From assembly GCA_009746045.1 (NCBI GenBank), contig RPFO01000026.1, forward strand, positions 4,496,820 through 4,560,819: a stretch of 64,000 nucleotides of DNA, read 5' to 3'. This document shows, piece by piece, positions 1,997 through 55,143 of the stretch. The notes under the pieces were generated by a model that was not told the DNA's origin, ran no database searches, and worked only from the letters and a program-made list of their open reading frames with translations. Within the stretch, counting starts at the first letter, position 1, and each line of letters starts with the position of its first letter. A program made the position numbers and the translations under genes. The stretch comes from Mesostigma viride (Eukaryota; Streptophyta; Mesostigmatophyceae; Mesostigmatales; Mesostigmataceae).

Positions 1997-4900
1997 GCGC
2001 GCTGGAGCTCGGCTTCACGCTGGCCGACGGGCTGGAGTACGTTCGTTGTGGGCTGAATGCGGGGCTGGATGTCGACACCATTGCGCCACGGTTCTCTTTT
2101 TTCTGGGCCATCGGCATGAACTTTTACTTGGAGGTGAGCAAGGGACTTTTGGTTGGACGTGAGCACGTTTGAGCAGGTACATGTAATCCAGTACGTCTCA
2201 TATACGAGCGTACGTTTTACCGCTTCTCCTTTTGGGGGGGCATTGGCATGAACTTCTACTCAGAGGTGAGCAAGCCTTAGGTCAGCATGGCATGGCATGC
2301 CTTTTACTTGGAGGTGAGCAAGGGAGTGTGGATGCAGGTAGGTTAATTCAACTTGCTACGGCTTGTGTCGCGGATTTTACTTGGAGGTGAGCAAGTCTTG
2401 AGAAATCAATTGCAATGTAGGGTTTAATTTTTTAAAAAAATATCATACTAGTATATGATTAAGCATTATGCAAGGGTCAGGCTGGAAGGGTTTCTACGGC
2501 ATGAATATCGCCTTGGATGTGACAAAGGAATGGGGATTGAGGAGCTTTGCTTAACCGACTACTGCTAATGTCATTAGCTTTTGCTTGAAATAGAGCAAGG
2601 GATGGGGGGCGGCGAGGTAAGCCGGGTTTGTGGGGAATCGGTTCCTGTAGGCTCTTGTATGCAAGGTGCGCGAGGATGCGGGGATGCAGACCCACGCAAG
2701 GAATACCTGGGATTCCATGTCATGAATTTGCGCTGACAGAATTTGTGCTGCTTTATTCCATGGCTTAGTTTTGTGGTTGCCGAGCAAACGACACTCTCTC
2801 ACACGGCGACACCCGTGCGCCTGCCACCTCGTACAATTTGCAATTTACTATGAAAACATCCCCAGATCGCAAAGATGCGCGCCGCAAGACGACTGTGGGC
2901 CAAGCTGATGAAGGTATAAGGGGGGGAGAGAGGGCGCGGGGAAAGGGCGGTCTTGAACCAGACCTCTGGTCGTTTCGTGTGCTTGCCTGTGTGTGAATGG
3001 CCTGTGCACCAAGCTGATCAAGTGATACTTTTGATGATTTAGGTATTGGCTTGCTATAGTCCTGGTACATGAGAAGGGATGGTCTTTAATCAAGCCTATA
3101 CACATTCTGATTGTACCTGTGGTGAAGGTACTGGATCACCTCTGGTTGTCCCTGTGCCTTTTGTCTGGGAGTCTAAAATGTGTAATGGATTATTACGGAT
3201 TTCGGTTCAGTTTACGTGGCAGATCTGTTTTGAACACAACTTATGTGATGCGAGCGGCATTGATCTCAAGGGAATCCTATCTAAATGGTTACGCCCGGAC
3301 TGACCTGGACTTTAAAATCAACTTCTGCTCGTCGGTGTAGCAAGCAGCGCTGTTTTCTCATCCCCGTTCATCTGTTACTCCATCCTTCTTCCTGCAAAAC
3401 CATAAACAGAGCCAGGTGGCATTGACGCGAAGCAAAGTATTATTATAAGGGTGTATTATGAACGCGAAGCAAAGTATTATTGTGAAGGTGCTACAGTTCA
3501 GCGTAACCTGTTACGCCTTTTTACTTTGCTTTTTACTTTTATCCCTAGCCAGCCAGCAACCTTGCCTCTCTTCTTCTTCTCCTCTTCCCCTCTTCCCCTC
3601 TTCCCCTCTTCCCCTCTTCCCCTCTTCCCCTCTTCCCCTCTTCCCCTCTTCCCCTCTTCCCCTCTTCCCCTCTTCCCCTCTTCCCCTCTTCCCTCTTCCC
3701 CTCTTCCCCTCTTCCCCTCTTCCCCTCTTCCCCTCTTCCCCTCTTCCCCTCTTCCCCTCTTCCCCTCTTCCCCTCTTCCCCTCTTCCCCTCTTCCCCTCT
3801 TCCCCTCTTCCCCTCTTCCCCTCTTCCCCTCTTCCCCTCTTCCCCTCTTCCCTCTTCCCTCTTCCCCTCTTCCCCTCTTCCCCTCTTCCCCTCTTCCCCT
3901 CTTCCCCTCTTCCCCTCTTCCCCTCTTCCCCTCTTCCCCTCTTCCCCTCTTCCCCTCTTCCCCTCTTCCCCTCTTCCCCTCTTCCCCTCTTCCCCTCTTC
4001 CCCTCTTCCCCTCTTCCCCTCTTCCCCTCTTCCCCTCTCCCCTCTTCCCCTCTTCCCCTCTTCCCCTCTTCCCCTCTTCCCCTCTTCCCCTCTTCCCCTC
4101 TTCCCCTCTTCCCCTCTTCCCCTCTTCCCCTCTTCCCCTCTTCCCCTCTTCCCCTCTTCCCCTCTTCCCCTCTTCCCCTCTTCCCCTCTTCCCCTCTTCC
4201 CCTCTTCCCCTCTTCCCCTCTTCCCCTCTTCCCCTCTTCCCCTCTTCCCCTCTTCCCCTCTTCCCCTCTTCCCCTCTTCCCCTCTTCCCCTCTTCCCCTC
4301 TTCCCCTCTTCCCCTCTTCCCCTCTTCCCCTCTTCCCCTCTTCCCCTCTTCCCCTCTTCCCCTCTTCCCCTCTTCCCCTCTTCCCCTCTTCCCCTCTTCC
4401 CCTCTTCCCCTCTTCCCCTATTTTCAGTAACATCCTATCATCTTTATGACCGCCACAGGCGCTCCGCTGTGCACGGCCGTATCTTCTGGCAAGCACACGA
4501 CTTCGTTATTGGTTCAAGCTCTCTATCCAGTCACAAGCATAAGGAGTTCTTTCCTTGGCTTTAGTAGTAGTTGTAGTACAATCCTGCCCAAAGTGCATAA
4601 GTATTCAAGTGTAGTAGCACAATCCTGCCCGAATCTCAGGGATGCTTACTGCTGCTCATGCAAATTGCCGCGGTCCCTGCAGGAGAAGTTCAAGCCCAAG
4701 AGCGAAAAGTCGTTGCTGCTGCGGACGCACTGCCAGGTACTGGTCACTGGGGTTTGCTTTGAGACATGATTTTTTGAATGGTTACTAATTACTGACGTCG
4801 AGGGGGACTGCCCATGTGATCGTGGTTCTCACCAGCGCCCAATTATACCCCGGTAGGTATGTGCAACCACGAAGGTGTCCGCCTGCAGGGCTGCTGAAGC

Positions 4901-7900
4901 TCGAGATGCATCCCTGACATCCTATCATTGTGAGGGCGTTGTGAGTCTCGCAGGGTTGATGCTTTGTGGGGAAGGGGGAGGCACCTGGGGAGGAAGTAGG
5001 GGGGAAGGGGGGAAGAGGGGACGGGAGCGCACTTGAAGGGGCCGGGGTAAGCAGCACTGTGGCTGCCACAGGGTTTGCAGCCACGGTAGCCAGCCCATGA
5101 TCCACAAGGAGTCCGCTCTGCATGGGGCGGCTCCGGAGTGTCAAAATATTTGATAAACTGTGTTGACCAAATCTCTATATATACTTCCAATCACCCAGAA
5201 ATTTAGTAGGTGTTGGAGTAAGGTTCCGGTCTTTCGAAGCTATAGTCTTGGATAACAAAATGAGGCGATTTCAAATATGTTGTCCGCACTTTTATTGTCC
5301 AAATATCCTGGCTGGCGGCCCTTGTCACAGGCCAGCTGCCATGGCTACTCAAGTACAATGCTTAAACACAAGGAGCAAAAGGTCACAGCTATATGCTACG
5401 TTACACACAAAGCACAAGGCACGACACAAGCAATATCCGCCGTTGGAGGTTTGGTGGCGCACTGCTGAGCATCGGATGCATAGGGCACATGCATAACATG
5501 CATGCACAAGCTTAAGGACCAAGGTTGCAGGGGGTGTGTCAACAGTATAGACACTTATGCCCGAATAGCTAGCTGGATTAAGTGTGACCCATTATATTTT
5601 CAGCCGACGGTTGGGTTGCATCGCTACTTAATTGCACTCACCGTACGCCTATTTTATGGCACACTTAAATTAATAGTTTAGGCTTGGGGCATGTTGTTGT
5701 ACTGAACCGCACGGAATATGTTTACTTTGTGATGGACTAGCTGTGACGTCCGACAGTCGTACCAACTTTCTTTTACCGAGCCTTGATGCATCGCATGGGT
5801 ACTTTGACATTTTTCCCATGCATACCAATGTGGCTTTTAGTCCTGGCGTCGCGCCACGCCGATTGCACTTGTTCTTTTTACACGTAAGTTGAGCCGAGAA
5901 GCATGAGCCGTGCCACTAGAAAGAAATCAGATTTACATGGTAGAGTATAGTGGCGCGGGCGCTGCAACCTTGGTCCTTTAGCTTGTGCATGCATGTTATG
6001 CATGTGCCCTATGCATCCGATGCTCAGCAGTGCGCCGCCAGATATCCAACGGCGGATATTGCTTGTGTCGTGACTTGTGCTTTGTGTGCAACGTAGCATA
6101 TAGCTGTGACCTTTTGCTCCTTGTGTTTAAGCATTGTACTTGAGTAGCCATGGCAGCTGGCCTGTGACAAGGGCCGCCAGCCGGGATATTTGGACCAGTG
6201 TTTCTAGTAAGGGTTTTTGCTCGCGTCAGCCTGGCTGACTCGCCGCCGTTGGCGGCGCGTCGGACGGCTGACTCGTTGCCAACGGCGGCAAGTTAGCCAA
6301 TGGAAGCTCAAGTTGGGAATCCGAAAGGGGTTCTCTTGCTACAGGGCCGAACGACCCCTGAGATAAGGTTTGGGGCACATGTCTAGCTTTTGAGTCAGTC
6401 TGACTTGTAAAAGCGCAGCGAGAAATGGGTTCGATCCATGATACAAAATTCAGAATAATATGACCTACTTCAACTGTTTTTCTGAATTTACTGTTACACT
6501 TAATTTCCCAGAATCTGGCTCGTCCAATGATGTTTCCTTCTTGGACCACCGGCCTGGGGGCTCACCAGCATTGCCGGACTGAGCCGATGCTGCTGCTACA
6601 CCACTGGCAGCATTGCTATCATTTCCCCTTTTCCTCTTGCTGCGGTTCGGCTCGTTTGCTGCCTGGCCTACGCCAACAATGGCACGCGGACTAGGCGCAG
6701 GCGCTTTGGCCATGCCGGCGGCCTGTTTCGGCATAAAAAAAACTGCGATCCCCCCAGATTTAATTTCCCCCAGTATTCCTTCCGGCGCCGTCCCTTCACC
6801 CTAAAACTTCCACCCCCCAGGTCGCTAACTTTTCTAGTTGACTATCAGACTAAACCATTAACGTTATTAAATGTTTATACAATATTACTGACCCGGCCCG
6901 AAATTTCACCTACGCATCTAGTAATGAATGGATCCAACAAATCTAAAGTGTTAATCAACACACCTGGAATCCGATTCAAAGCAATCTACAAGGAAAGGAT
7001 GTTCATCTAAATCAGGCAACCTCGCAAAGCTGCGTCAATCAGCTCATCAATCATATTCCGGAGGATCGACCATTGCCAGTCGTCCTCGGCTAGGTATTGT
7101 GCTACCACTTAGCATTCGTCTCGAACAACGGTCTAGACTCTAGAAGTCTCGTCACTCTCGCCGCCAAGCAGGCAAGGGCCGGCAGGTCTGGCACTTGGCA
7201 TGGTAACGGGCTGTTCAGGATTCCGCACTGTCTGACGCATAGACTCGGTGCACATGAGTACTGACATGCTGCCTAAATTTCCGCGTCAGACGACTGACGT
7301 GCAGTAAAAATTTACGCGTCAGATGACTGACGCGGGGCCAAAATTTACGCGTCAGCTGTCTGATGTGCGGACGAAAAAGTCGGACGCGTCAGACACTGAC
7401 GCGTCAGCGGCTGACGTATACGTACCGTTACTAGAAACACTGATTTGGACAATAAAAGTGCGGACAATATATTTGAAATCGCCTCGTTTTGTTCTCCCAG
7501 ACTAAATCTTCGAAAGACCGGAGCCTTACTCCGACACCTAAGAAAATTTTTGGGTGATTGGAAGTATATAGAGAGATTTGGTCAACACCGTTTATCAAAT
7601 ATTTTGACATGGTATCGTCAGCCGAGTTCCGAACTGATTTCCCAAGCCACGAAACGTCTTCCAAGCGTCTATAAAAGAAGAAAACGGCTATCTTTTCTGC
7701 CTACTTTTCATAGTGTGCTGATATGAGGAAGTCATCATGGAGGGGCCTGATCAGCCTGAGTATGATTTTGCCACAGTCACTATAGAGTTCGAGGTGCGAA
7801 AAATATCAGCGCTTGTTAACCCAGAAAAGGCGCAGCAGTGGACAGAACAAATAATAAAGGGCATTAGAGAAACTGACCTGGATTGCCCAATTGACTACTT

Positions 7901-10900
7901 GTGGTTGAACACCCTACTCCTGAGCTATTTGAAGCATCTGTAGCTCTCGGTTTGGTAGGGCTGCCTCACCTCCGCTTGGAGGGCCTTAAACACAGCGCTG
8001 GCACGCCGGTCGTTAACCAGTCGTGCCACGCGTGCCCCTCGGCCCTTCATAGGGCTGATGATAGGCGTGAGCAGCGTTTTCTCGGCAGTAATCACATCAG
8101 GGTCGTTTACGTCCGCTGTGCCTTCAATGACGTCCTTGACATTGTATGCCTCGCACCCGGTAAGTAGCATATCCTCGAACTCGCGCCAGGTAGCGTAGTC
8201 TTCAAAGGGATCGAAGGGCGTCATGCTGCCGAAGTATTTTACAACTTCCTTAGCGCCCTTCGTTCTTGGGGGTTCATCGCGTGAAGGTGGCGTGTTAGAC
8301 GCACCACCACTGCCTGTGTTCATGGTGTACAAGGGGGAAAATAGGCGCTCCTCGCGCGGAAAGAAAGCCTTGCAGCGGTAAAATAAAATGCGCCTTAGAA
8401 AGCTCACTCGAAAACAATGCCCTTTTCTTCCTTGAGATGCTTCAAATAGCTCAGGAGTAGGGTGTTCAACCACAAGTAGTCAATTGGGCAATCCAGGTCA
8501 GTTTCTCTAATGCCCTTTATTATTTGTTCTGTCCACTGCTGCGCCTTTTCTGGGTTAACAAGCGCTGATATTTTTCGCACCTCGAACTCTATAGTGACTG
8601 TGGCAAAATCATACTCAGGCTGATCAGGCCCCTCCATGATGACTTCCTCATATCAGCACACTATGAAAAGTAGGCAGAAAAGATAGCCGTTTTCTCCTTA
8701 TATAGACGCTTGGAAGACGTTTCGTGGCTTGGGAAATCAGTTCGGTACTCGGCTGACGATACCATGTCAAAGTATTTGATAAACTGTGTTGACCAAATCT
8801 CTCTATATACTTCCAATCACCTAGAAATTTAGTAGGTGTCGGAGTAAGGTTCCGGTCTTTCGAAGCTATAGTCTTGGATAACAAAATGAGGCGATTTCAA
8901 ATATATTGTCCGCACTTTTATTGTCCAAATATCCCGGCCGGCGGCCCTTGGCACAGGCGAGCTGCCATGGCTACTCAAGTTCAATGCTTAAACACAAGGA
9001 GCAAAAGGTCACAGCTATATGCTACGTTGCACACAAAGCACAAGTCACGACACAAGCAATATCCGCCGTTGGATGTCTGATGGCGCACTGCTGAGCATCG
9101 GACGCATAGGGCACATGCATAACATGCATGCACAAGCTAAAGGACCAAGGTTGCAGCGCCGGCGCCACTATACTCTACCATGTAAATCTGATTTCTTTCA
9201 GTGGCACGGCTCATGCTTCTCGGCTCAACTTAGGTGTAAAAAGAACAAGTGCAATCGGTGTGGCGCGACGCCAGGACTAAAAGCCACATTGGTATGCATG
9301 GGAAAAATGTCAAAGTACCCATGTGGTGCATCAAGGCTCGGTAAAAGAAAATTGGTACGACTGTCGGACGTCACAGCTAGTCCATCATATCGTCTGTATC
9401 ACAAAGTAAAAATATTCCGTGCGGTTCAGTACAACAACATGCCCCAAGCCTAAACTATTAATTTAAGTGTGCCATAAAATAGGCGTACGGTGGGTGCAAT
9501 TAAGTAGCGATGCAACCCAACCGTCGGCTGAAAATATAATGGGTCACACTTAATCCAGCTAGCTATTCGGGCATAAGTGTCTATACCACTGACACGGAAC
9601 AGGACCACTAGACCACGTCTGTTGTGCGGCCACAAAAACATCATCACCCTTGCCATATCTTCTGACAGCCGGCCTACCTCTGCCTCCAAAGCACTGGGAA
9701 CAGGCGCACCGGGAACAGGCGCACCAAGTGTTGCGGCCGTGCTGAGCGCGCTGGCAACACTGCGTGCCTGACGGCGACTGGACGGGGGGCAGTCCCAGAC
9801 AGGCAGGAAGGTGCGATGGGGACCGAGCGTTGGGAACAGGTGTCCGCGCGTGTACCGGTGCCGTCACAGTCCAAGAAGGAGCTTGCAGGGTGAGAGCCAA
9901 GGCGGGCTCATAAACCAACCCGCACGATGACACAGGAGACGGTGAGGCGTCGTACCTTGCAGGCAAAGGGGTGCCCAACGAGGAAGAAGGGAAACCAGCC
10001 GACTGTACTGGTGCTGTGAGGCGGTAGACCTCTTCCAACAACCGGGTAAGATCCCTCGCGTCCGTGCGGAGCCGACCATCCCACGATACCTCCAGCTCGT
10101 CTGTGAAGTAGATTTAGTCTTGGAGTGCTGGGTTGATTGCAACCTCGCTCCTGAGCCATTCACGCATGTCGCGGGTGGCAGGATCCTGCAACACCGCGGG
10201 AACATCGACCAGTAATAATCGCCAAAGGTTGCCACAGCTCCCACAACGCATGCCCTTGATGGGGCCATAACTCAAGCATTCATGGCTGCCCAGACTACTC
10301 CAGGCGACTCGAGCAAAGAGAGGAGCAATAAGCTCCTGAATGCCGTGTGCCAACGAGGGGAAAATGCGATGCTGGGGGCGCGTTTGAAGGGGGAGCACGA
10401 TCCCACAGGGTAAACGGACCCAACTGAAGGAGAGGAGATGCCGTAAATGCGGGGGAGGTCCGGACAGGAGCTGCGATTCCATCATCTGTTAGCGTGCGAG
10501 GGGAGGGGGGCAACCAACCACATGATGGCATCCACATGACACACAATGCCCCAGGAGGAGGCTACACCTACCTAGGGACGGTCACCTCACCTTTCTGTTC
10601 TAGTGCTGGAATGGACCGAGGAGGCGGGGGCATGACTTGATCTGTAGATCAGACTCGGCCTTGTGAGAGAAGTGGCTTAGTTGGGGACCCTCTACTGGGC
10701 ACCCCATCGCCTTCTGAGATGGGTGGAGTACGACCGTCAATGCAGGCAGGGACAGGGCCTTGTACTTGTGTCTGGCCGTACGATAGCCCTGAATGGCACT
10801 CTCATGTGCTTCAACCATGCAACAAGAGTTCATCCACACCTTGCATGGTAGAGCGGGACATTGTTTTCTTGGTGAGGAGAGGGCTACTCAACAGGTCCGT

Positions 10901-13900
10901 ATGAGAAAGAGGGGGGTGACCGGTGTCCAGAAGAAAAGGGGTCATTCCATAATCCATGCGCAGCTGCCGCAGCATCAGCACTTTTGTTGAGGAAGAACTC
11001 TATGAGGGGAAGCTACCCCTCCCAATCATCACGGCCACGGGCAACGTATTGTTTGAGGGCCTCCTCGACAACCCGGTATTAATTAGTAATATGAATTTGT
11101 ATTATCTCTTTACAATTTCGATATGTCTTTTCATAGATTTTTTAGTTTTTCTAGTTGTTTTATGTGTTTTATAAAAAACAATGTTATGGACCCCCAGTAC
11201 CCCCTGGCCCCATGCAACCTCCCCAGGCTCCCGTACCATTGTGCACTCGGATGCGCGGTTCCTTTGCTCGACCTCGTCTAATATGTTAGGCTGTGGTTAT
11301 GGGACTGTCGGTTTTTGGATTGTGCGCACACGACCGTGGTTTGATGGCTGTGGTAAGGACCGTGGTTGCGATCCCAGTATCTGGATCCAAGAAGCCGTAT
11401 GCCTGTCTGGTTTTCCCCCTGGGCCGCGCTTGCATGCACGTGTGTGCAGATGTCGGGCTGCTGCGCTCATCCACACTAGCCACACTAGATGCACAGTATG
11501 ATACTGTCTTGTTAGCGTCCAAAATGATATTGTCTTGATTGCGTCCGAAATGAGATTGTTTTTGTTGCATCCAAAACGATATTGTTTGTGCCATTCTGGA
11601 TGTCGCTTGTGTTCCATCATACTGGATGTGTGTTTGGGTTCAATGCACAGACCTCGGGCTACTCGCTGACGGCGCAAGACCCCTACAACAACATCGTGCG
11701 GACGACGGTGGAGGCGATGGCGGCGGTGCTGGGGGGGACGCAGAGCCTGCACACCAACTCGTTCGATGAGGTGAGCGTTTCAGCACACCAACTCAGTTGA
11801 TGAGGTGAGCGTTTCAGCACACCAACTCGTTTGATGCGGTGAGCGTTTCAGCACACCAACTCTGAAGGCACTGTTGCATGCCACAGGTCACACCGAAGAC
11901 ATGATGATGTAGTGCGTGGCACAATAAATCATGATGCAGTGCACAACAAAGGCATGTACACAAAACTATATGGAGTGGCACAAGCCCCACCGACTCTTGG
12001 ATGAGGAATGTTTCTGTCGCACTTCGCCGTTTGCACCTTGTTTTAAGCATGGCTTCAAAAGTAACGGTTCTTTCAATAATAGTAATACTAATATAATAGT
12101 AATACTAATAATATTCAATAATAGTAATACTAATATAATAGTATACTAGTATTTAGTAATAGTATATTTCGCCTTGTTTTCAGGAGGCGAGCGCGTGCCA
12201 CTTTAGCCCCTTTCGATGCGTTGTTTTTGTTCAAGGGTCATCCCTCCCAGTCACCTTCTCAACACATGCTGATCTATGTGCTCATTGGCTATAGGAAAAT
12301 TGAGTATATGTGATCATCATCGGGAAAGTGAGAAGGCGGTGCCGTACAAAGTTGTTTTTATGGTAGGGTATGGGCAGTATGGTTGGCCCCCGGTGCGGAA
12401 TGTCAAGAATATGGCACTATTTGCCACGTTTCGGGTAACTTTGACTTTTTTTCCTGTTGCGTCTGGGACGCTTTACTCGACCGTTGGTAGCTGGGTGAAT
12501 TTATTGATTTCTTGCAATTAGGTCGAGTACTCTACTTTTTTTTTATGTTCGACGAGATGTAAAATTGCACAAGTCTGCACAAGTCTTTTCTCCCTTGGCC
12601 GATTGGATCAATACCGGAGTTTCTCTCTCTGGTTAATATTTGCTGTCGTCCGTACAGTACCTGGTACTGGCCTGTCGGTACCTTAGTCGTTTGACAAGTT
12701 TGTAAGGATCCGCGCTCCGCGCCGACTCCCTGTTCACAAAGTGTTGCCCTGGATGCGCAACGTCTTTGTACTTGCATACTCGTGACGCTGCATGTTGTGT
12801 TGATGCAGGCCACCCACTTTCGTGTGGCGGCTGGCTGCACACTCTTAACTATACAGTTGATTTATTTTCAGATCGATGGTCATAGATATTGCATGCTTTC
12901 CACATGTTGTTGCCCCTGCAATTGTCAACAGACCTTGTTGGTCGCCTAATCGCTCATGGCTAACGTTGAGTCGTGTAGGCCTTGTTGGCCATAGCCATTG
13001 TTGGGTGTGTTTGCCGTGTTGGCAGCCCTAGTAGGGCGTGTTGTCAGCCTCGTTGGCTACTAGCCTTGTTGGCTACTGGGTAATTTACTATTCGTAATGG
13101 AAAGGCGTCAAAAGGCTCAGATCTTTCCTCTGCATACGCTTTTTTTTCTGACACGGAATCACTGCCAACTAATACTGCCCCGCCTTGGGATGCCAGTGGA
13201 GCTGTCTGCCTTTTTAATATTATGATTGGCTATTTAATTTTCCGCTGAAGACATCATTGGACATAATACCCCCCCCGCGCGATTCATACATTTATTGATT
13301 GATGATTCTCTTTCCGAACTTATAATAAAAATCGACTTGACTAGAGTTTCAGTTTTATCACCCACCTGGCTCCGGCACCCTTGATTGACCACGCCCATGC
13401 CCGGCTCCCACCTCCAGGCGCTGGGCTTGCCGACCGAGACCAGCAGCCGGGTGGCGCGCAACACGCAGCTCATCCTCCAGGACGAGACGCAGATCACTAA
13501 GGTGAGGAGTTTTTACCTTTTTTTAAGGTGTGTGGGGGGGGGGGGCAGGAAGAGGCACGGTGACATGGGTATTGCCAAGGTGACATGTGGCAGCATTTGT
13601 CTCTCATGTATGCGTACGTGCGTGTGGACGTGTGGATGTGTGTATGTGCGTGTGTTTGTATGTGCGTGTGTTTGTATGTGCGTGTGTTTGTATGTGCGTG
13701 TGTGTATGTATGCGTGTGTGTGTTGAATGGAGAGATTGCCACGGTGACTAGCAGCGGTAGTCGGGCACACTCATGTTGTGAGCATGGAAGGGGGGGGAGG
13801 CACCAATCACACATGTGACAGGTGACAGGTTAGTTGTTGTATGTGCGGGGTGCAGAAGCAGACACACACCACACACATGTTGGGCAGCGCTGATGGCTTT

Positions 13901-34000: not shown

Positions 34001-34287
34001 TATTTGCTCAATGTGTTACGAATCTCTTCCGTACCACCGCAGGGCAGTGCGCTGCCAAACATGGGACATGGAATGGATGGGTGTATGCATGCCAGACGTG
34101 TGCCGCATAACTGCTAGTAGGACCACAGGACGAGGCGCTGCCCGACACGTGAGTGTAATAGAATCGACGCATGTGTGCCGGATGTGTGCCTATTTGCTGG
34201 CACAACCACAGGACGAGGCGCTGTCGAATGACATTGAGACGCTCATGGCCTACCTTCTGGCGTACGCGTGGGAGCAGTTCTCCAAGG
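25056..34287 (+). CDS. Unidentified large helical protein with long disordered insert, seven-exon chain
   Basis: Seven exons join in phase: 25056-25097, 25759-25949, 26484-26823, 28012-30579, 31666-31836, 32372-32455 and 34212-34287. All have GT-AG borders. Helical segments include VDLFCSFLQETYSLEELFFF, LSHCLAVTRAIFGGGRLADR, FLQVLLVLFHATTPD, LLVGQLARVCSLYTERLLS, VLHQLHKRSVAALSAALQQA, LLLNLLTSRASDAASPNN and DEALSNDIETLMAYLLAYAW. The 2568-nt exon codes for about 800 disordered residues rich in Gly, Ser, Pro and Arg. They include SPKRG, SPRRG and repeated SRERS/SVERS motifs like an RS domain. This pattern suggests an armadillo/HEAT-type scaffold, but I do not recognise the family. The last exon ends in phase 1, so more exons follow that I could not locate. 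Confidence 0.7.
26100..26300. repeat. Imperfect repeat GTTAGGTCAGGTGTAGGG
   Basis: Short G/T-rich units of the type TATAGTTAGGTCAGGTGTAG repeat between the donor-copy array and the next acceptor in the intron 25950-26483. Confidence 0.6.
27036..27905 (+). repeat. Minisatellite whose unit contains a 3' splice site
   Basis: More than 25 copies of a roughly 31-bp unit have the core TTTTTGCAGTATATTTGTGC followed by TCATTTTCCCAATG or TCATGTTTCCCATG. Each unit has a T-rich tract and CAG, so each resembles an acceptor. The array lies just before the acceptor of the 2568-nt exon. All three plus frames stay open across most of it, giving false 260-317 residue ORFs. Confidence 0.95.
31034..31560. repeat. 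Compound microsatellite (CACACT)n, (CACGCACT)n, (CACT)n
   Basis: About 525 bp of CA-rich repeat shift in composition from left to right, within the intron 30580-31665. The HTLTHS-type ORF is an artefact except for its last part, which is the real exon 31666-31836. Confidence 0.95.
33243..33765. repeat. 46-bp dimeric minisatellite, about 11 copies
   Basis: Near-perfect 46-bp units are each built of two related 23-bp halves, one starting TATTGTCACCGATATGG and the other TATCGTGACAGACATGG. The copies are almost identical, so the array is young. It begins right after a short TTTAGGG run (33238-33259) and lies in the intron 32456-34211. Confidence 0.95.
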
Positions 34288-34751
34288 GTGAGTGACAATG
34301 TGACAGGTGGCAGCGCTCCTAGGATATGTGGGGGAGATTTTCCCAGCGGGCAATCCTCCAGGGGTGAGTGGGCACAGGTTTCCAAAGGTGGGCGGGGCCT
34401 GTTTTCCAAGGGAACATGGGGACAATTTTTGAAGGGTCTGGGGGGCCAATATTGGGATGGCGATTTGGGCCAACTTTTCCCGGGTAAATGGTCGCAGTGC
34501 AAGGGCTACAGCGTGATCTTCCTTGGTGAGTGACATGTGGCATTTGCTGGGCCACCGCGCTTATTGCCTGGGATGCACATGCAGAAACTACAACCAAGGT
34601 ACTGTTCGTATCAAGAGTGGCTGCTGCCCATTGCTGGGCTTTTGCTTTATGGGCTGGAATGGTTTGGGTGGGCTCTGCCACGGTGGCGTTGTCAGTATGT
34701 AGTATTATGAAGCGTTAGCCAAGTACAGTTAGCACATTGCATACACACCAC

Positions 34752-38520: not shown

Positions 38521-38879
38521 TCCCCACCTCCCCTTACAGGCAGGCCACAACCCGTTGTACAGGCTGGGCTCCAGCTGCATCGGGCAACTGGTCAGCAAAC
38601 CAGACTACTTCAGGCTCCCTTTCACAAGTTCGCGTCAGGGTCCCAAGGGGGTCATGGACTCGCCATGGTCCCTGTCTGCAGGCTGGCCATACCCCTTTCT
38701 CAGAGGTTCCCCTCCAGGTCGATCGGGTACCTGACAAAGCAAACCAGAGTTCTCAAGCTCCCTTTCTACAGGCTTGCATCCCGGTCGATGGGTATTGACA
38801 ACTTGTCATGGACCCCTCGTGACGACTCAGAAGCAATTCCTTGAAAGATTTGCCTCCAGGAGCTAGGGGATCAAGCAAT

Positions 38880-39035
38880 ACCCATGCTCCTATCCTGCAG
38901 GCTGGCCCTCCTATTCGCAGGTTGGCCCTCCCATTGGTGGGTTGGCCCTCCTATTCACAGGTGTGCTGGCCTTCCTATTCACAGGTTGGCCCTCCTAGTG
39001 GCGGGGGTGCCCTCCTATTCACAGGTTGGCCTCCA
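38880..39035 (-). repeat. Tandem copies of the malic enzyme stop-codon region
   Basis: Downstream of the malic enzyme stop (minus strand, stop at 39019-39021), a phrase read on the plus strand as CTCCTATTCACAGGTTGGCC recurs near 38972, with variants near 38909 and 38949. The original at 39013-39032 contains the last codons and the stop. The copies therefore repeat the coding end plus stop into the 3' flank. Confidence 0.75.
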
Positions 39036-45486: not shown

Positions 45487-48400
45487 ATGTCAGCCCCGCG
45501 TATGTGGGTCTGGATGAGACGGGTATGCCAATCGTCCGCGCTGTGCTCTCCGAGGGTACCGCATTGGCGTCACTTTTCTGTTGGCACGGAAGCTGTGTAT
45601 CGTTCTCATCTAACGCCAATCAAGTTCCTGGAAAGGAGCGCAAACGGTAGGCATCAAAACGGGGTGAAGGTTTACATGCCTTTTAATAGTCTGACCTAAT
45701 GGCTTTCCACAAGGTTGTAGTTACGCCGATCTTGTAAGTCAAGTCGATCTTTGTATCCATGTGCATGTGTTTTGTTAATTCAACAGCTGATTAACCCATT
45801 CTGCAACGTTCTGCAAGTGGGTTTCGATCTTGATTTCGCTTAACTTCCTGCCTGAGTGCTTCCTGATGACACTTCTTACTGTAGCCCATATGCATCGCCA
45901 CGTTGCACGTTCATTTTGGTGGCAGTGTTCAGAGATAAGGACGCAATCAAGCTTGATGGGACAGCCTTCACTTACGGCCAATTTTTTGACAGGGCGTCCA
46001 AGCTAGCCGGCGGACTGATTGCTTCCGGCGTACGTCCAGGCGACCGCGTGGCGATCGTTTGCAGGTTCGTCGGCATCGCGATGATCGATTATAAGGCTTG
46101 CCGCGATCGGTTGCCCCATCCACCGGCGTCCGTGATTGGTATGATGGTCCCTGTGGCATTTCATGTTGCATTTCCATATTTCCATTATTCCCTTCCCTTC
46201 CCTTCCCTTCCCTTCCCTTCCCTTCCCTTCCCTTCCCTTCCCTTCCCTTCCCTTCCCTTCCCTTCCTTCCCTTCCCTTCCCTTCCCTTCCCTTCCTTCCC
46301 TTCCTTCCCTTCCCTTCCCTTCCCTTCCCTTCCCTTCCCTTCCCTTCCCTTCCCTTCCCTTCCCTTCCCTTCCTTCCCTTCCCTTCCCTTCCCTTCCCTT
46401 CCCTTCCTTCCCTTCCCTTCCCTTCCCTTCCCTTCCCTTCCCTTCCCTTCCCTTCCCTTCCCTTCCCTTCCCTTCCCTTCCCTTCCCTTCCCTTCCCTTC
46501 CCTTCCCTTCCCTTCCCTTCCTCCCTTCCCTTCCCTTCCTTCCCTTCCCTTCCCTTCCCTTCCCTTCCCTTCCCTTCCCTTCCTTCCCTTCCCTTCCCTT
46601 CCCTTCCTTCCCTTCCCTTCCTTCCCTTCCCTTCCCTTCCCTTCCCTTCCCTTCCCTTCCCTTCCCTTCCCTTCCCTTCCCTTCCCTTCCCTTCCCTTCC
46701 TTCCTTCCCTTCCCTTCCCTTCCCTTCCCTTCCCTTCCCTTCCCTTCCCTTCCCTTCCCTTCCCTTCCCTTCCCTTCCCTTCCTTCCCTTCCCTTCCCTT
46801 CCCTTCCCTTCCCTTCCCTTCCCTTCCCTTCCCTTCCCTTCCCTTCCCTTCCCTTCCCTTCCCTTCCCTTCCCTTCCCTTCCCTTCCCTTCCCTTCCCTT
46901 CCCTTCCCTTCCCTTCCCTTCCCTTCCCTTCCCTTCCCTTCCCTTCCCTTCCCTTCCCTTCCCTTCCCTTCCCTTCCCTTCCTTCCCTTCCCTTCCCTTC
47001 CCTTCCCTTCCCTTCCCTTCCCTTCCCTTCCCTTCCCTTCCCTTCCCTTCCCTTCCCTTCCCTTCCCTTCCCTTCCCTTCCCTTCCCTTCCCTTCCCTTC
47101 CCTTCCCTTCCCTTCCCTTCCCTTCCCTTCCCTTCCCTTCCCTTCCCTTCCCTTCCCTTCCCTTCCCTTCCCTTCCCTTCCCTTCCCTTCCTTCCCTTCC
47201 CTTCCCTTCCCTTCCCTTCCCTTCCCTTCCCTTCCCTTCCCTTCCTTCCCTTCCCTTCCCTTCCCTTCCCTTCCCTTCCCTTCCCTTCCCTTCCCTTCCC
47301 TTCCCTTCCCTTCCCTTCCCTTCCCTTCCCTTCCCTTCCCTTCCCTTCCTTCCCTTCCCTTCCCTTCCCTTCCCTTCCCTTCCCTTCCCTTCCCTTCCCT
47401 TCCCTTCCCTTCCCTTCCCTTCCCTTCCCTTCCCTTCCCTTCCCTTCCCTTCCCTTCCCTTCCCTTCCCTTCCCTTCCCTTCCCTTCCCTTCCCTTCCCT
47501 TCCCTTCCCTTCCCTTCCCTTCCCTTCCCTTCCCTTCCCTTCCCTTCCCTTCCCTTCCCTTCCCTTCCCTTCCCTTCCCTTCCCTTCCCTTCCCTTCCCT
47601 TCCCTTCCCTTCCCTTCCCTTCCCTTCCCTTCCCTTCCCTTCCCTTCCCTTCCCTTCCCTTCCCTTCCCTTCCCTTCCCTTCCCTTCCCTTCCCTTCCCT
47701 TCCCTTCCCTTCCCTTCCCTTCCCTTCCCTTCCCTTCCCTTCCCTTCCCTTCCTTTCCTTCTGTTTCACCTTGCTCTCGTTTGCCTCATTCATCATCAAA
47801 GGCAGTTGTATCTCCTTTCCCAGGTGTGTTCATGACAATGTTCAATCTGAAATCCTTTGGCCATGCTTCAACTTTGGAGTCCCCGGCAAAGCACGTGCCC
47901 CTGTGTATCCCCAATCTAAGACTCACATTCATGCTCCTGTGCCGCAGTCGCGCGCTTCCATTAACCAGGAACTTCATCTGTTCCAGACACGTCAATTTAC
48001 GTTGCAGCCAGTCAGATGTTCCAGATGACAGCAGTAACAGCGAAAGCCCACGATGACACGTATATCTTCACAACGCGAGCACGTTTGCAAAGTCTGTATT
48101 CCAATCAGTAGACCAATCGCACTGTGCACAGTAGTCATGCCGTACCTGCATTGGGGCCTTGGCTTCACCCACGTCACCAGAGTGTGGCACCTCCGTGGCC
48201 CAGCTCGTTATCTTGTGGTCTCGTTGCAATTTGTCGCTGTGCAAATATTTCTGCTAATATTTGTTGTTGTGCAATTTATTGCCTTCGTTACCGCTATTGC
48301 TTCTGCCATGTCATCCTTCGCCCCCACATCTTTCACCCACCCCTAACCCAGAATGCTCCCCCTGGGCACATCGAGGCCCTACGATTTTGGTATATATATA

Positions 48401-51400
48401 TCCTTGTTGTCTCTATGGCCATTTTTAAATCTGCTCGCTCCGTTGCTCGGCGTCTTTCACGCATTTGCCTTCCGTGCAGGAACTTGCGCGCGCACCATAC
48501 GGCCTTTTTCTTGAATTCATTCAGCACAAGATCTTGCTAGCATCCTTATTGCTCTCTTGTGTTTTCTGCTGATTCCGTTATTTCCCTTTACTCTCCCAAG
48601 GAACCTGCCTGAAGACATCGAGGCCCTTTTCAGTCTATCTGGTAGATATCGGCACCATTCCTGATCCTTTCTGTAGTCCCCGACCTCTTCTAAAAGTAAA
48701 TACCATCAGTTCTTGTCGTTTAAATGCCCCTTACCCCCCCCAGGAACCTGCCGGAGCACCTCGAGGCCCACTTTGGCGTCCCCATGGCCGGCGCGCTCCT
48801 CGTGTCCATCAACACGCGCCTGAGCCCGCGGGAGATGGGCACGATCCTCGCCCACTCAGGCGCCTCGATCCTGTTGGTCGATTCTGCGCTCGCCAGCAAC
48901 GTGGCCCACATCCCGGGCCTTGCACACACGCCTGGGAGCGGCCTGGCGGCGACTGTCGGCGGTATGGGGTGTCCCACTAGTGGCAGCGGCGGGGGCGGCG
49001 GGGCCAGCGATGATGGGGCCTTGTCGGGACTTAGGAAAATTGTGACGATTTGCGAGGACCCCTCACACACGGTGCACGAGCATCTGTTCCCGCGGGGCGT
49101 CACGTATGAGGAGTTTCTCAAGTCGGGGGAGAGCGTGGCGGTTGACCCGCAGGGGCGGCTTCAGCATGAGGAGGACAGTATTGCGATCAACTACACATCA
49201 GGGACAACGGTGGGTGGTGGACGGATTTATGTTCAATGGAACTTGGGCGACTTGACCGTGAACTCAAAGTTTTCGTATGTCAAATGGGGCTTGGATGCAC
49301 TGAAAAGTTGGCGAGGGTGGGGTGAAGCTCCCCGTTGGAAACCACAGGGGGTGGACGTTTTAGCATTTCGGCAGAGCTTTGTTGAAGTCGGTTTGATTAA
49401 GTGCAAGAAGCAATTGGTGGGTGGGTAGATCAACGACCCACCAGGGACCACGACGGTTGGTTGGTTGATTGGTTGGTATATTTTCCATTTGATCATATTT
49501 TGTCGATTTGGTTGGATTTGGTCGACAGTACAAAATCTACTTATCATGTGATGAGGGTTGGGTAAATTGCATGGCAGGGCCGATGGTGGTCGTGGCTTGA
49601 GTTAATTTGTCTGATAGAGTTCCGTTTCATTCCGTGGAATAAGCACGTGGAAGGTGGTTGGATCAACTAGACTGTCAGGGAGGACGGTGGGCGGTCGATT
49701 TTTTTAATACGTTCCACTAGAATGCAGTCGAGTGGGTGCAACTAACTAAGCGTGTGGTAGGTGGCTGGGTTTGCTAAAGCAGATGGATCAAGTACATGCT
49801 CCCTGGTTGCGTGGATGCTGTGTCAGGCATGTGCTAGCTGGGTGCGTGGATGCTGTGTCGGGGACCGCGGTGCCGCGGTGGTTGGTCGATAACACACATA
49901 GTCTGTTCGCTTGAGATGGTCTGTTGGACTCGATCTGTGTACTGAAAAATGTCGTTGGTAGCTGGGTCATGTCAAGGTGAGAGAGATGCGCGGCAGCGCC
50001 AGCAACTACCCGACCTACCCCTTCAGGGTGCGAGGCGCTAGGGACTAGTTTGCACTTTCTGGATGATTGGCTCGCCGTGTCCTTGCCAAATCCGCCCTCA
50101 GCCTAGTGCATGCCTTGCCCGCCCGTTACTGTGAGCGCGTTTTCGTCATGCTTGCGCATTGCGTGTTTATGCTTACACACGCGCGTGTTCCTGCTGCTTG
50201 CCCCTTTCGTTCCGTTCCAGGGCGCCCCAAAGGGCGTCTTGTACAGCCACCGTGGGGTGTACCTGAACGCCATCGGCGAAGCGATGGAGAGCGGGCTCAA
50301 TTCTTCATCCAAGTATCTATGGACGGTACGGACTTCTGAATTTTTCTTGACCTGTGTATCTTTCTGGTCTCTCGCCTCGCATGGATCAATCTACCGCGTC
50401 GCCTCGATTGGGTGGTCATGGCACGTGTTTGATAGTAGCGGGCATGCAGCTTACGATGACATTATCAGCATAGACCCCTCGCGGTGTTCAAATTTTGTGT
50501 TGGTGTCTCTAATGCACCTGTTCTCTGTATCTGCCCCCTACTTGCATACCAGCTTCCCTTTGCTAACCGATAGACCGCGCTGCCTCCTTAGCCTTCCTCT
50601 GAATCCATCGCCTAATTAATGAAATCAAATACTTTGTCGTCTACTTTTCAATCTCCGTGCTAAACACTTATTCATCTGCTTATCGGTCTCCGTGCTAACT
50701 ACTTGGTCATCTGCTTATCGGTCTCCGTGCTAACTACTTAGTCATCTGCTTATCGGTCTCCGTGCTAACTACTTGGTCGTCTGCTTATCGGTCTCCGTGC
50801 TAACTACGAAGTCATCTGCTTATCCGTCTCAGTGCTAACTACTTAGTCATCGGAACATGGCCGCGGGGCGCGGGCTATCTACTGCATACACTAGCATCGT
50901 AGTATTTTAGTGCCAAAACTCTTGTCCTCTGCCCTCCCACTCCCTTAGGTTCTCACACTCGTGACCTCACACGCATGATTGTCACTGTCAACAGAATGCA
51001 ATACTACTCTATATATCATATAATTGTCGATGGGGTGCCTCATTTGGACATGATGTCCCCACACATGCCTCTGTGCTGCGTGCTGTGGTGCTGGCTGCGA
51101 TGGCACGTGACACTTCCTATTCTATTCTTGGCTGACCCTCCCCTTCCAGCTGCCCATGTTCCACTGCAAGTCCTCCCATCTACGCATGCCTCCACCCGCA
51201 TGCCTCACGTATGTGCCACGCATGCTGCTGCTGTGCTTCGTGCCATGGTGCTGGATGCGGTGGAACTTGGCATTTCATGGTTTACTTTTGGCTGCCCCCT
51301 GACACGTTCCAGCTGCCCATGTTCCACTGCAACGGCTGGTGCCACCCGTGGGCCGTCACCGCGGTGGGCGCGACGCACGTATGCCTTCGCCAGTAAGTAC

Positions 51401-54400
51401 AAGGGGGCCGTGAGGTTGTCGATAGCATTCCTTGGCCCGATGCACGTCTGCCCCCGCCCATATGTGAAACTGATCGCTCCCCGATGCTTGGTGCGCGCTG
51501 ACCCAACCATTGGGCCCAACCGGTACAGCATGCCTGTGACCGGCGCACGCCATGCCTACTGGACACCCTGCATCATGCCTCTTCCGTGTCCTTGCGCACT
51601 GCGCCTCCTTGCGCGCCCATGCACCGCGCCTGTGCACCCTCCTCGCGCGGCACGCACCGGACCATGCGCCATGCCTGCGTGATGTTCTTGGGTGGGGTCC
51701 GGGTGCCCGCACCGGACCATGCATGATGACTGTGAGTCCGTGCATCCGTACCGGGGGTGGTCGTCGTGAACAGTTGCAGTGCACACACTGTATGATTAAA
51801 GGACCTGCCTTCTGGACAGGCTCATGTGTGCCATCGCGTCGATGGGGGTCCCTGCAGGTGGTGACTTTTGGCACTCTTGCAAGGTCTTAGGGCAGTCAAA
51901 ACACGCAAGAAAGGATACCTCCCATTTTTATGTCTTATTGCATCTGCAACGTGTCGATTTTCATGCCCATCGCCTATCGAACGTTGGTATTATATTCTTG
52001 CTTCTCTTCTTTGATGGAAATTTGATGGTTGTGCGGAGGCCAAACATGAAGGGCAGTGCGCCGGCACCGACGCCCATCCCACGACGTGCCTTGGCTCCTC
52101 TCTGCGATTCAAACAAGCATCGCATTGTCAAGGTAGGCTGTGCCGTGACAATACCCAGCGCGTGTGGCGGGTCCTCGCTCGTGGCCGTTTGTTTGACCCT
52201 GCTCTTCCCTAGTGCTGCCGGCCCTTGCAATCGCCGTTCCTCTTGTCCCTCATCCCCTCTTCGGCTCCCCCCCACCTGCTCCCGTCCTCACATCAACCCC
52301 CGCCCCAGCTTTGACCCCCAGCACGCGTGGCGGGTGATCCTCGAGGAGCGCATCACCCACATGTGCGGCGCCCCGATCGTCCTCCACTCCCTCGCCCACT
52401 CCCCCCACGCGCCGCGGCCGGGAGAGCTCCCCCAGACGCTGACCATCGTGACCGCGGGGGCGCCCCCATCGCCGACCCTCCTCGCCCGCATGGAATCCCT
52501 CAACGTTGATGTCCGCCACATGTACGGGCTCACAGAGACCTACGGCCCGCACACGGTCTGCGCAGTGCAGGACACCTGGCGGGGGCTGCCCTTGGCGGAG
52601 CGCGCCGCTAAGGTTTCCCGCCAGGGCGTTGGGATGATCTGCGCCGACCCTGTCAGGGTGGTCGACGGCGACATGCGCGACGTGCCCCGCGACGGCGCCA
52701 CGATGGGCGAGGTCGTCATGCGGGGGAACAACGTGATGAAGGGGTACTTCAGTGACCCTAGAGCGACCGAGCGCGCGTTTCACGGCGGGTGGTTCCACTC
52801 GGGCGATCTCGCGGTCATGCATCCTGACGGGTACATCGAGCTGAGAGACCGGAGCAAGGACGTCATCATCACGGGGGGGGAGAACGTGTCGTCCATCGAG
52901 GTGGCGCAGGTGGGGGGTGTGGGTGGGGAGAGATGGGTGTTCTTACTAGTTTAGGTGGGGGGTGGAGGACGGCAACGATGTTTTGTTGAATGATGGGGGG
53001 CGATAGGCTTGTTTGTTTCATGTTGATTGTGGCTGGGACAGGCATCCGCATGAGTACTCACATGGAGGACTGTGTTGGTCATTGATTTGAGCACCGGGGA
53101 GGGACCGGAGCAAGGACGTGATCATCTGTCGCGGTCGTGCAGGTGGGGGGGGGGGGAGGAGGGGAGAGAGAGTTGGGTGCTCTGACTCAAGGTGTGGCCG
53201 CGCAGGCGGCTGGTGAAGAAGACAAGGGGGCAAAATTGGCAAACGGGTGTCGCTGGTGGTTTAGATGGCGTCGGTGGGTGGTGACAGATAGTAGGGGTGC
53301 CTTGCATCCAGTTTAGATCACCAGGTGCTTGGGTGGGGAGGGGCAAAAGAAAAATGGGGTGTTATGATAGTTTAGGTCACGCACTTCGGTGTTCAAAGAC
53401 AGCAGGGGTGTGTTTTTGAGTGCGACAGCTGGCACAGGTGGGTGGCACCTAGGCACGTGTTGGGGCACGTGATGGGCCAGCTGGCACAAGTGGGTGGGGT
53501 CAACGAGTTTGGGCCCATGACGGGCCAGCTCGAGCAGGAGGCTCCAGCAGGAGGGTGGCAGGTTGTTGGGTTGTTGCAGTTGCGTCGTGAGTGCAAGTGC
53601 ATGTTTGGTAATTACCCCGCACATACTATGCATCGAATGGCGACCGTGGTTTCCAGGTCTCCCTTCATGTTTGTGGCCTTGAATGGCCAGTGATTCCTTT
53701 AAGGTATTTGCGCTTAGCGCCATGTGGCATATTGAACCAAGGAAACTAGCTTTGGCTAGGCCAATGTGTGGCTTTTAGCCTATAAAAATCTGGCTAGGCA
53801 CGGCCACGTGTGGCGACTGGCGGGCGGGCGAGTCAACTGGCTTCCCTGGTCACACAATGCTCCCTTCTTAACCTGTCACCTGCCACTTGCGGGCAGCCTT
53901 CCGAGTCACTGAGTCCTGAGCGCAGAATTCTTCACGTACACTGCGGCGTGGCGCGGCGCTTTGTGGCCAGTCAGCTAGTGAGCTTCAGGCGACCAAAGCA
54001 CGCGAGTCGACACTCGACAGCCACGGGGCACTGGGCCATTGTTGACTGGCGGAAGCTACTCGTAGTACTACTAGGGAGACTTGCGGCGGAGAGCCGGCTG
54101 GAACACAGATTGACATGGCCAAGTGTGGCGTCACTAGGTAGTAGCTTTGGATTCAACACGGCCATGATGTGGTGACCAGCAATTGCCAAGTAGCACAGCT
54201 CCGCCACATTGTGGCGTCTTGGGACCTGTCATTTGGGGTTGATATCGCCACAATTTGCTAAAACAGGCGCTACAACGCCACATTTGGCGAGCAAACGCCA
54301 CGAATAAACACTGTGTATGGCCATTCGTGCGCTAAATTGTGGGCTTGGGTGTGCTTCATGCCCATACAAGGTATGCATGCGTGGAGCTGTGTCGGTCTAC

Positions 54401-55143
54401 CGCGTCGCAAGGCGACGAACCGACGCCTATTTAAGAAGTGGTTGGGTGCCATTTTTTCTAGGTTTCATGTCATTGGACTTTCCTGTGATGAATCTGTCTG
54501 ATATGATGCAGATACTTTCTCGACAACCCTCATGGCGTTTTGGTTAGACATGGGAGTGGGTTAAAGAAGACGCTTATGTGCCCACTTGTTGTCACATAGC
54601 CAGCTGCTCTGTTTCTACTTCATTTGACTGGGCACATGAGCTGTGGTGTCTTCCGTATTCCACATTTCGTTCTCAAAACAACGTTGGCATGCACAGATCC
54701 TGGAACGGCACCCTGCTGTGATGGAGGTTGCCGTCATCGGCGTTCCCCATCCCAAGTGGGGGGAAACTCCCAAAGCATTCGTAAAGCTGTGGCCATCCCA
54801 TGCCAGTCCTGGGTCCAGTCCCCCGGGACCCTCTGCGGCTGCTGCATCTCCAGCGGAGGGCGTGACAGGTGGTAGCATAAATCATGCTAAGGCTGTTGAG
54901 AAACAAGCTGCCTCTGTCAGCGAGGGAGGTGCACATGACACGGATGCATTGGCAGCCCACTGCCAGCTCATGGAGAAAGAGCTCATCACATTCTGCCGGC
55001 AAAACCTCTCGCATTACAAGTGCCCGACGGCGGTCCAGTTTGTGCAGGAGCTGCCCAAGACGAGCACGGGCAAGATACAGAAGCACATTCTGCGGGACAA
55101 GGAGTGGATGGGGCATGGGACTATGCGAATCCAGGGGTCGTGA
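45487..55143 (+). CDS. Acyl-CoA synthetase (AMP-binding, AAE/short-medium chain type), complete, seven exons
   Basis: ATP-dependent activation of a carboxylic acid to its CoA thioester through an acyl-adenylate. Exons: 45487-45646, 45926-46064, 48744-49209, 50221-50325, 51313-51392, 52309-52909 and 54697-55143. They total 1998 nt, giving 665 aa, with all phases consistent. Motifs: P-loop TSGTTGAPKG (about 251-260, rebuilt across a splice), [21 protein letters not shown] (about 390), [26 protein letters not shown] and the C-terminal lysine motif [11 protein letters not shown]. The sequence resembles plant acetate/butyrate-CoA ligases (AAE family). The N-terminus ([17 protein letters not shown]...[10 protein letters not shown]) is basic and lacks acidic residues, like a mitochondrial presequence; no C-terminal peroxisome signal is present. 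Low-complexity inserts occur after [15 protein letters not shown] and after [12 protein letters not shown]. Confidence 0.95.
46187..47755. repeat. Polypyrimidine satellite (CCCTT)n, 1.57 kb
   Basis: More than 300 pentanucleotide units with scattered CCTT four-base slips fill most of acyl-CoA synthetase intron 2 (46065-48743). The tract is pure pyrimidine on the coding strand. Three frames stay open across it, giving false ORFs of about 600-660 residues. Confidence 0.97.
47760..48340. other. Rest of synthetase intron 2, no gene seen
   Basis: Non-repetitive sequence between the CCCTT satellite and the acceptor-copy array. Short ORFs only, no motif. Confidence 0.4.
48340..48775 (+). repeat. Decayed copies of an acceptor plus exon start (synthetase exon 3)
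   Basis: The real junction (CCCCCAG then GAACCTGCCGGAGCACCTCG) is preceded by three related blocks. One is near 48585-48632 (CCCAAG, GAACCTGCCTGAAGACATCG, AGGCCC), one near 48465-48500 (GTGCAG, GAACTTGCG), and one near 48340-48382 (ACCCAG, AATGCT, then GCACATCGAGGCCCTACG). Spacing is roughly 120-145 bp. Confidence 0.75.
49195..49775 (+). repeat. Decayed copies of exon end plus donor (synthetase exon 3)
   Basis: The exon ends GATCAACTACACATCAGGG, ACAACG, then donor GTGGGTGG. Related blocks follow at 49427-49465 (GATCAACGACCCACCAGGG, ACCACGACG, GTTGGTTGG) and 49661-49700 (GATCAACTAGACTGTCAGGG, AGGACG, GTGGGCGG), with a weaker one near 49735. Spacing is about 230 bp. Confidence 0.8.
50640..50855. 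repeat. Minisatellite, 40-bp unit, about five copies
   Basis: CATCTGCTTATCGGTCTCCG followed by TGCTAACTACTTGGT repeats in synthetase intron 4 (50326-51312). Confidence 0.9.
51139..51340 (+). repeat. Duplicated acceptor plus exon start (synthetase exon 5)
   Basis: The real junction, TTCCAG then CTGCCCATGTTCCACTGCAA, starts its exon at 51313. The same 26 bases occur at 51144-51169, preceded in both places by related sequence, giving a unit of about 163 bp. The upstream copy diverges right after TGCAA, so it is a decoy acceptor. Confidence 0.85.
53250..54690. other. Distal synthetase intron 6, no gene seen
   Basis: There are repeated phrases of the type TGGGCCAGCTGGCACA at 53400-53530 and CGCCACA(T/A)TTGG words at 54210-54300. 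Short ORFs without motifs. Confidence 0.4.

Follow-up and report, generated by a model that had tools for sequence, protein, structure and literature searches.

In a window of 64,000 nucleotides of the Mesostigma viride genome (Streptophyta; GenBank assembly GCA_009746045.1, contig RPFO01000026.1, positions 4,496,820 to 4,560,819 of the forward strand), introns of four genes carry short copies of the exon edges beside them, splice sites included. The copied unit, of about 15–50 bp, straddles a coding edge and recurs as a direct repeat 34–615 bp into the intron, mostly past an unrelated spacer. Such copies recur in other genes of the assembly, are nearly absent from exon interiors, occur in intron interiors as well, and are found at more donors than acceptors. 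The phenomenon is real and recurs across our genome sample; it is partly passive, with an additional, unexplained excess at the edges. We consider the best explanation, with a probability of roughly 55%, to be that short local duplications are frequent, that selection on coding sequence filters them, and that introns grow at their edges.

Exon-edge copies in the introns of four genes

The assembly comprises 440 Mb in 2243 contigs, and the window is part of contig C887. From Pfam matches, reading of the sequence and translation of the spliced exons, we rebuilt four genes with 27 defined introns: a methylmalonyl-CoA mutase (+), an unnamed gene, G2 (+), a malic enzyme (−) and an acyl-CoA synthetase (+). 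Alignments to solved relatives in the PDB span every splice join of the mutase and the synthetase, so the exon-like extra pieces in their introns lie outside the protein. The evidence for the 10 introns of G2 consists of the open frame and splice consensus; a Pfam search of its exon frames tested found no family match, and neither did that of the reading frame of its 2.6-kb exon (28012–30579). Each junction query comprised 40 exon and 20 intron bases and was compared with the following 800 intron bases. Malic enzyme intron 1 (127 bp) was excluded from tests requiring 300 bp, and acceptor 48744 is outside the 27-intron set because its intron is incomplete.

The original prediction, made from the letters of the window, had named 15 exon edges with copies in the neighboring introns of these genes on both strands; all 15 positions are correct to the base in the rebuilt models, and all 11 donors and 4 acceptors beat base-shuffled introns. 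The 11 donors and three of the acceptors scored above every one of 300 shuffles each, and acceptor 48744 reached 46, the best of its 500 shuffles being 38. With dinucleotide-preserving shuffles, acceptor 16585 was tied by 1 of 200. The lowest-scoring cases were donors 2913 and 34287 (score 27). Many exon edges also matched their own intron better than other introns: with the scores of the same queries in the other introns as background, 14/27 donors and 4/27 acceptors lay above the 99th percentile (permutation p = 5e-5 in each case), as did 9/17 donors when G2 was left out. At either end, 16 of the 27 introns are affected, in line with the predicted fifteen or so of about 25, and the judgment that this is far beyond chance is upheld by shuffle, other-intron and other-locus controls. 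The predicted period range of 34–230 bp was too narrow, the donor offsets in the window being 34–477 bp. The copies and their sources are listed below, in window coordinates.

2089–2145 (+): source donor junction of the mutase exon ending at 2133; splice join backed by PDB alignment
2221–2274 (+): copy 1 of the 2133 junction (−45 to +9), 44/54 identical
2291–2325 (+): copy 2 of the 2133 junction (−25 to +12), 34/37 identical
2375–2395 (+): copy 3 of the 2133 junction (−12 to +9), 21/21 identical, flanks unrelated
3002–3022 (+): copy of exon end 2913 (−21 to 0), 18/21
11749–11862 (+): 34-bp tandem array, 3.4 copies, across donor 11770
16358–16385 (+): copy of acceptor 16585, 23/28
16472–16496 (+): second copy of acceptor 16585, 21/25
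17059–17085 (+): copy of donor junction 17007, 24/27
18619–18774 (+): three partial copies of donor junction 18553
26041–26145 (+): two copies of donor junction 25949, 44/54 and 23/26
32570–32617 (+): copy of donor junction 32455, 42/49
33923–34140 (+): two copies of acceptor junction 34212, 22/26 and 40/51
34350–34370 (+): copy of donor junction 34287, 18/21
38887–39031 (−): tandem array holding the malic enzyme stop codon, a copied coding end
39930–39976 (−): copy of malic enzyme donor junction 40121, 38/48
48584–48626 (+): copy of acceptor junction 48744, 35/43
49428–49461 (+): copy of donor junction 49209, 27/34
49658–49698 (+): second copy of donor junction 49209, 34/42
51128–51169 (+): copy of acceptor junction 51313, 39/45
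53099–53187 (+): copy of the end of exon 52309–52909 and its donor, in two aligned pieces
55164–55191 (+): copy of the synthetase stop-codon region, bounds approximate (the stop ends at 55143 and overlaps donor-like GTGAGT)

Three donors beyond those predicted also passed: that of G2 intron 6, where the repeated part is intron and not exon, that of G2 intron 7, with a G-rich match, and that of synthetase intron 3, with a match to the exon part only. The fourth passing acceptor is synthetase 52309, with a match confined to exon sequence.

A scan with sliding 60-base windows (threshold 28) found downstream local direct copies for 14.7% of junction windows (n = 211), 5.8% of intron windows (n = 1652), 3.1% of intergenic windows (n = 1034) and 1.7% of exon windows (n = 460), with controls at 0–0.1% for distant and 0.4–1.2% for inverted copies. 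At junction windows, inverted copies amounted to 0.5% at threshold 28 and about 2% at 24; given how rare they are, we rejected copying off inverted templates. A first profile of the window showed an acceptor peak of 3/26, not above the intron interior.

Form of the copies and their spacers

Copies that reach the junction include 6–45 bp of exon, and their similarity to the source is usually gone within 12 bp past the donor. For 24 donor copies located by exon sequence alone (8 of them from two arrays), identity was 0.83 at +1/+2, 0.74 at +3 to +6 and 0.58 at +7 to +9, and near random from about +19. The aligned exon part was 0.85 identical (678/799 over 36 copies, which were selected to match). 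Simple tandem duplication with a period equal to the offset was rejected for most copies, because similarity ends about 12 bp past the donor even though the exon part is 73–100% identical.

Four donor and no acceptor junctions lie inside arrays of at least 2.8 copies; the other copies are mostly spaced. A period of about 34–35 bp was seen for the junction copies at 11749–11862 and at kinase locus L032, and an offset of 34 at L056. Two of the freshest cases, in the kinesin introns L062 and L076, look like a source, spacer and copy whose source-plus-spacer block was later amplified. Outside arrays, we found no consistent extension of similarity from copy to copy past the core. Copy identities gave no support to a push-out model, in which nearer copies would be younger. 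Among six-mers, the donor-like GGTGAG was enriched, but families were counted many times and we did not rely on this result.

Repeats in intron interiors are built in nearly the same way. The spaced repeats had a median unit of 22 bp in interiors versus 26 bp at junctions and a median spacer of 67 versus 92 bp, with an identity of 0.91 in both. By the strict measure, the median junction unit was 27 bp (interquartile range 24–31, with a lower limit of detection of about 14 bp), and 18/19 junction and 38/49 interior cases were spaced. Of the 18, however, L032, L062 and L076 sit in arrays, and about nine of the 38 interior cases correspond to junction units, as copies or fragments of them; these are included in the interior medians.

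Recurrence in kinase and kinesin genes

The original prediction had proposed a genome-wide habit. This stands insofar as the copies recur in kinase and kinesin genes; the sample is these two sets, not the whole genome. For the kinases, regions were chosen from 135 matches mainly for a partial match and edges were judged by eye; unclear edges in L049, L054, L055, L056 and L058 were omitted, and 5 of L001–L030 were used. Positive were 8/33 donors and 7/31 acceptors, compared with 0/33 and 0/31 for exon interiors and 5/33 and 2/31 for intron interiors. One donor, L032, was spotted via its array, and without it the donors are 7/32. At L033 the acceptor point has no AG. Three positive acceptors are doubtful, as the match of L031_4979 is to a protein repeat of the preceding exon itself and those of L053 and L039 look conserved as coding sequence, leaving 4/31. 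The copies at L053 and L039 are exon-like, lie upstream of kinase exons and differ mainly at silent positions; they are possibly alternative exons. Near the first in-frame stop of L028, a probable donor junction that is not among the 33 kinase donors has a very fresh copy (score 113).

For the kinesins, introns were called with a script that took no account of repeats, in 16 compact regions of 129 matches; of 24 introns called, one low-scoring intron was dropped, and eight exon pairs gave no usable model. Here 9/23 donors and 2/23 acceptors were positive, one of the two acceptors (L069) being a C-run. Exon interiors gave 1/23 and 0/23; in intron interiors the count varied with position between 4/23 and 6/23, and tandem arrays made up much of it. 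One kinesin gene is present on contigs C2 and C622 with nearly equal spacing of its pieces, which probably represent two haplotypes.

Size of the edge effect

To quantify the effect, we scored a 50-base window as positive when its central bases fell in a local direct repeat. Without masking, donors were positive in 25/82 cases versus 94/938 in the donor-side interior (ratio 3.0, confidence interval (CI) 2.0–4.6; other-locus control 2/626) and acceptors in 7/78 versus 83/899 (ratio 0.97, CI 0.31–2.17; other-locus control 3/581). Donors thus exceed acceptors (Fisher p = 7e-4), also outside the window (15/56 versus 5/52, p = 0.026). Masking of TRF tandem arrays and low-complexity sequence, which replaced a 3-mer complexity filter that penalized long matches, raised the ratio to 9.3 for donors (18/63 versus 42/1369 in the intron interior, CI 5.1–17.6) and 6.3 for acceptors (7/50 versus 30/1356, CI 2.0–18.1). 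Exon windows 45–75 bp from the edge were positive in 4/218 cases on the donor side and 2/198 on the acceptor side. By set, the masked donor ratio was 9.0 in the window, 7.4 in the kinases (CI from 0) and 10.5 in the kinesins. Far intron ends were often unset in the kinases, so that interior windows may enter exons and inflate the ratios; the window and kinesin sets, with known intron ends, gave the same donor ratio (15/39 versus 33/837; 9.8, CI 5.2–20.6).

Coding ends

As a coding edge where no splicing is expected to follow, we used the stop codon. A stop with room behind it was available at 16 of 30 kinase loci, which together with the four window genes made 20 ends; 5/20 scored at least 28, compared with 0/380 controls. 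At five loci (L010, L012, L013, L014 and L028), a strong donor precedes the stop and the reading frame probably continues into an intron; they were set aside, leaving 15 usable ends. Donor scoring at the stop covered the kinase ends only. Copies of the stop-codon region were found at 4/15 usable ends, those of the synthetase, the malic enzyme, L002 and L017. These few cases hint that any coding edge can be copied, against a cause in splicing only.

The original prediction saw in the copies a habit of duplicating the junction itself. Enrichment at the edges agrees with this; the similar repeats of intron interiors and the copied stop-codon ends do not, and suggest instead a general process of local duplication that is seen more at coding edges.

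A proposed model of local duplication and selection

We propose that a segment of about 15–50 bp is copied directly, usually with tens of bases of unrelated DNA between source and copy. This arrangement would be expected from a staggered break whose ends are filled in and then joined through filler DNA, and we infer break repair as the cause on these grounds. Duplications lying entirely within coding sequence would be purged by selection. Those lying within introns would be neutral and would fade quickly, because both copies mutate. Where a duplication straddles an edge, the exon end would be copied into the intron together with its splice site, and this copy would remain recognizable, since its counterpart in the exon does not change. 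An additional donor downstream is harmless, as the original one continues to be used, whereas an additional AG upstream is likely to be chosen before the original one. Copies of donors would accordingly be better tolerated than copies of acceptors, and selection of this kind is probably what lies behind the donor bias. Certain pairs of source and copy may have been amplified later into tandem arrays, an order of events suggested by the form of the freshest ones. The net outcome would be that introns lengthen from their edges. The expectation that introns are extended by copies with decoy-like sites agrees with what we see, as the introns are longer by these copies and GT-bearing copies are left behind in them.

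Several results weigh against this explanation. The masked excess, 9.3 for donors and 6.3 for acceptors, is above the 1.2–2.4 given by passive decay in a neutral simulation (parameters chosen by us; source constant at the junction and free in the interior), so that constraint on the source accounts for part, not the whole, of the excess; quicker turnover of intron interiors could add to it. The size of the effect hinges on the treatment of arrays, as the comparison of 3.0 and 0.97 unmasked with 9.3 and 6.3 masked indicates. In the window and kinesin sets together, the acceptor excess was not significant (3/32 versus 16/794; 4.7, CI 0–16.3). The point past the donor where similarity ends, mostly within 12 bp, is tighter than tandem duplication with a period equal to the offset would give. 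Finally, the stop-codon sample is small: two of its four copied ends, those of the synthetase and L017, carry GTGAG where the stop lies and may be donors that went unrecognized, and of the other two, which have no donor-like motif there, L002 is on a small contig that may come from another organism.

Alternative explanations

A serious, though less probable, alternative is that donors, and perhaps coding edges generally, are hotspots, at which a junction-centered segment of about 20–40 bp is repeatedly copied into the intron through a process linked to transcription or splicing. A stalled polymerase, an RNA-DNA hybrid or nascent RNA bound by splicing factors might trigger the breaks or slippage. 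The part of the donor excess that passive decay leaves over fits this proposal, as does the excess outside the window (11/43 versus 24/907; 9.7, CI 4.3–25.8). Likewise in its favor, the frequency of copies peaks at the junction in the window and kinase sets (0.21–0.22 at −10 to 0 versus 0.00–0.05 beyond +50), the right boundary of the copies lies mostly at most 12 bp from the donor, donors exceed acceptors, and all four junctions within arrays of at least 2.8 copies are donors. It is opposed by the pooled masked acceptors, which are likewise above the interior, by the 4/15 copied stop-codon ends, of which two lack a donor-like motif at that point, and by the very similar anatomy of interior repeats. 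We retain local duplication filtered by coding selection as the preferred explanation.

An insertion origin appears unlikely, either through mobile elements or introners with target duplications, or through intron gain in which an exonic AGGT segment is duplicated in tandem. The order of source, spacer and copy does resemble an insert flanked by a duplication. However, when spacers were compared with the window and all fetched loci, 20/21 matched their own locus alone; the exception, that of L070, contains a further exon copy and shows short matches elsewhere. The AGGT signature of intron gain, which the original prediction had brought up, is absent: donor regions are unlike the acceptor regions of the same introns, with scores of 11–18 and, over the 27 introns, a self mean of 14.0 versus an other-intron mean of 15.5 that is raised by pairs sharing a short exon.

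Slightly less probable still is retention of the copies by selection as alternative or decoy donors. Many copies keep the GT and part of the donor consensus, and the aligned intron side is identical at 273/305 positions versus 678/799 on the exon side, although local alignments are trimmed at mismatches. Identity at +1/+2 (0.83) and +3 to +6 (0.74) is not above that of the exon part, which is a weak test given that the exon part was selected to match, and the offsets of the copies follow no fixed reading frame. Assembly error or chance is very improbable: although the simple arrays of the region are hard to assemble, the exon part of the copies has diverged by up to about a quarter, other-locus controls were positive in just 2/626 donor and 3/581 acceptor cases, many contigs are megabases long, and the copy-bearing kinesin gene occurs on both C2 and C622 with equal match spacing over that intron (C622 was compared by spacing only).

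Relation to known systems

In Daphnia (PMC4202315), significant internal direct repeats were reported in 55/90 new introns versus 16.2% of established introns; they were read as repeated staggered breaks with inserts, and passive intron lengthening was proposed. The likeness lies in direct repeats within introns and in short repeats common to an intron and one adjacent exon. The Daphnia repeats are 4–17 bp long (4–12 bp when shared with the exon) and strongest in new introns, whereas here units with a median of 27 bp span a single junction, and recent intron gain was no criterion in picking the genes. Direct repeats flanking an insert that is mostly unique within the fetched DNA, as in Daphnia, are found here too, but the junction units, among those of about 14 bp or more, are typically longer than 4–17 bp. 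In potato, a tandem duplication across an intron-exon boundary created an intron; it also crossed a boundary and reused existing splice signals, but the intron there was new, whereas here existing introns are lengthened at one end.

Break repair has been credited with closely linked duplications in vertebrates, splice sites included (PMC2671141). In contrast to our copies, the median proximal unit was 147 bp, the pairs were about 1.2 kb apart on average and one inverted case was described; that survey left out pairs within 50 bp. Fill-in at breaks with 3′ overhangs was shown to yield small tandem duplications (PMC8355091), although these were Cas9 breaks in human and mouse cells and the abstract has no splice-site aspect. 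Direct repeats at exon-intron borders, with a mean of 11.4 bp, pair the 5′ border with the 3′ border (PMC11782384), whereas donor and acceptor regions here do not match each other. The introners of Amoebophrya form repeat families, and our spacers, as judged within the fetched DNA, are unlike them. Our searches of open-licence papers turned up no description of copies of this size across splice junctions as a feature of established introns throughout a genome.

Other repeats in the window and the assembly

In addition, the window contains several repeats of other kinds. Mutase intron 2 holds a pyrimidine array of about 106 copies of TCTTCCCC (3575–4419), and mutase intron 3 (6.9 kb) largely the same open-frame stretch three times, twice on the plus and once on the minus strand, that looks like a repeat element (5167–9077). 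A 34-bp unit is repeated about 25 times in G2 intron 6 (27047–27893), with a consensus that includes the acceptor-like TTTTTGCAG. About ten copies of the plant-type telomere unit TTTAGGG are found within a malic enzyme intron (41506–41581), and a pyrimidine array of about 318 copies of TTCCC lies upstream of the synthetase exons (46188–47758). Elsewhere in the assembly, contig C2011 has eleven full-length AMP-binding matches in intronless open frames of 2158–5371 amino acids, which suggests a bacterial contig.

Implications

Intron lengthening is usually credited to transposons and drift. With the exon end as a constrained reference, small duplications that fade in introns can be dated and counted. 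The difference between donors and acceptors offers a testable case in which splicing rules would influence the set of duplications that persist. A residual excess that proves real would point to damage or slippage focused on splice donors; were donors indeed hotspots, introns would grow from their 5′ ends and fill with neutral donor copies.

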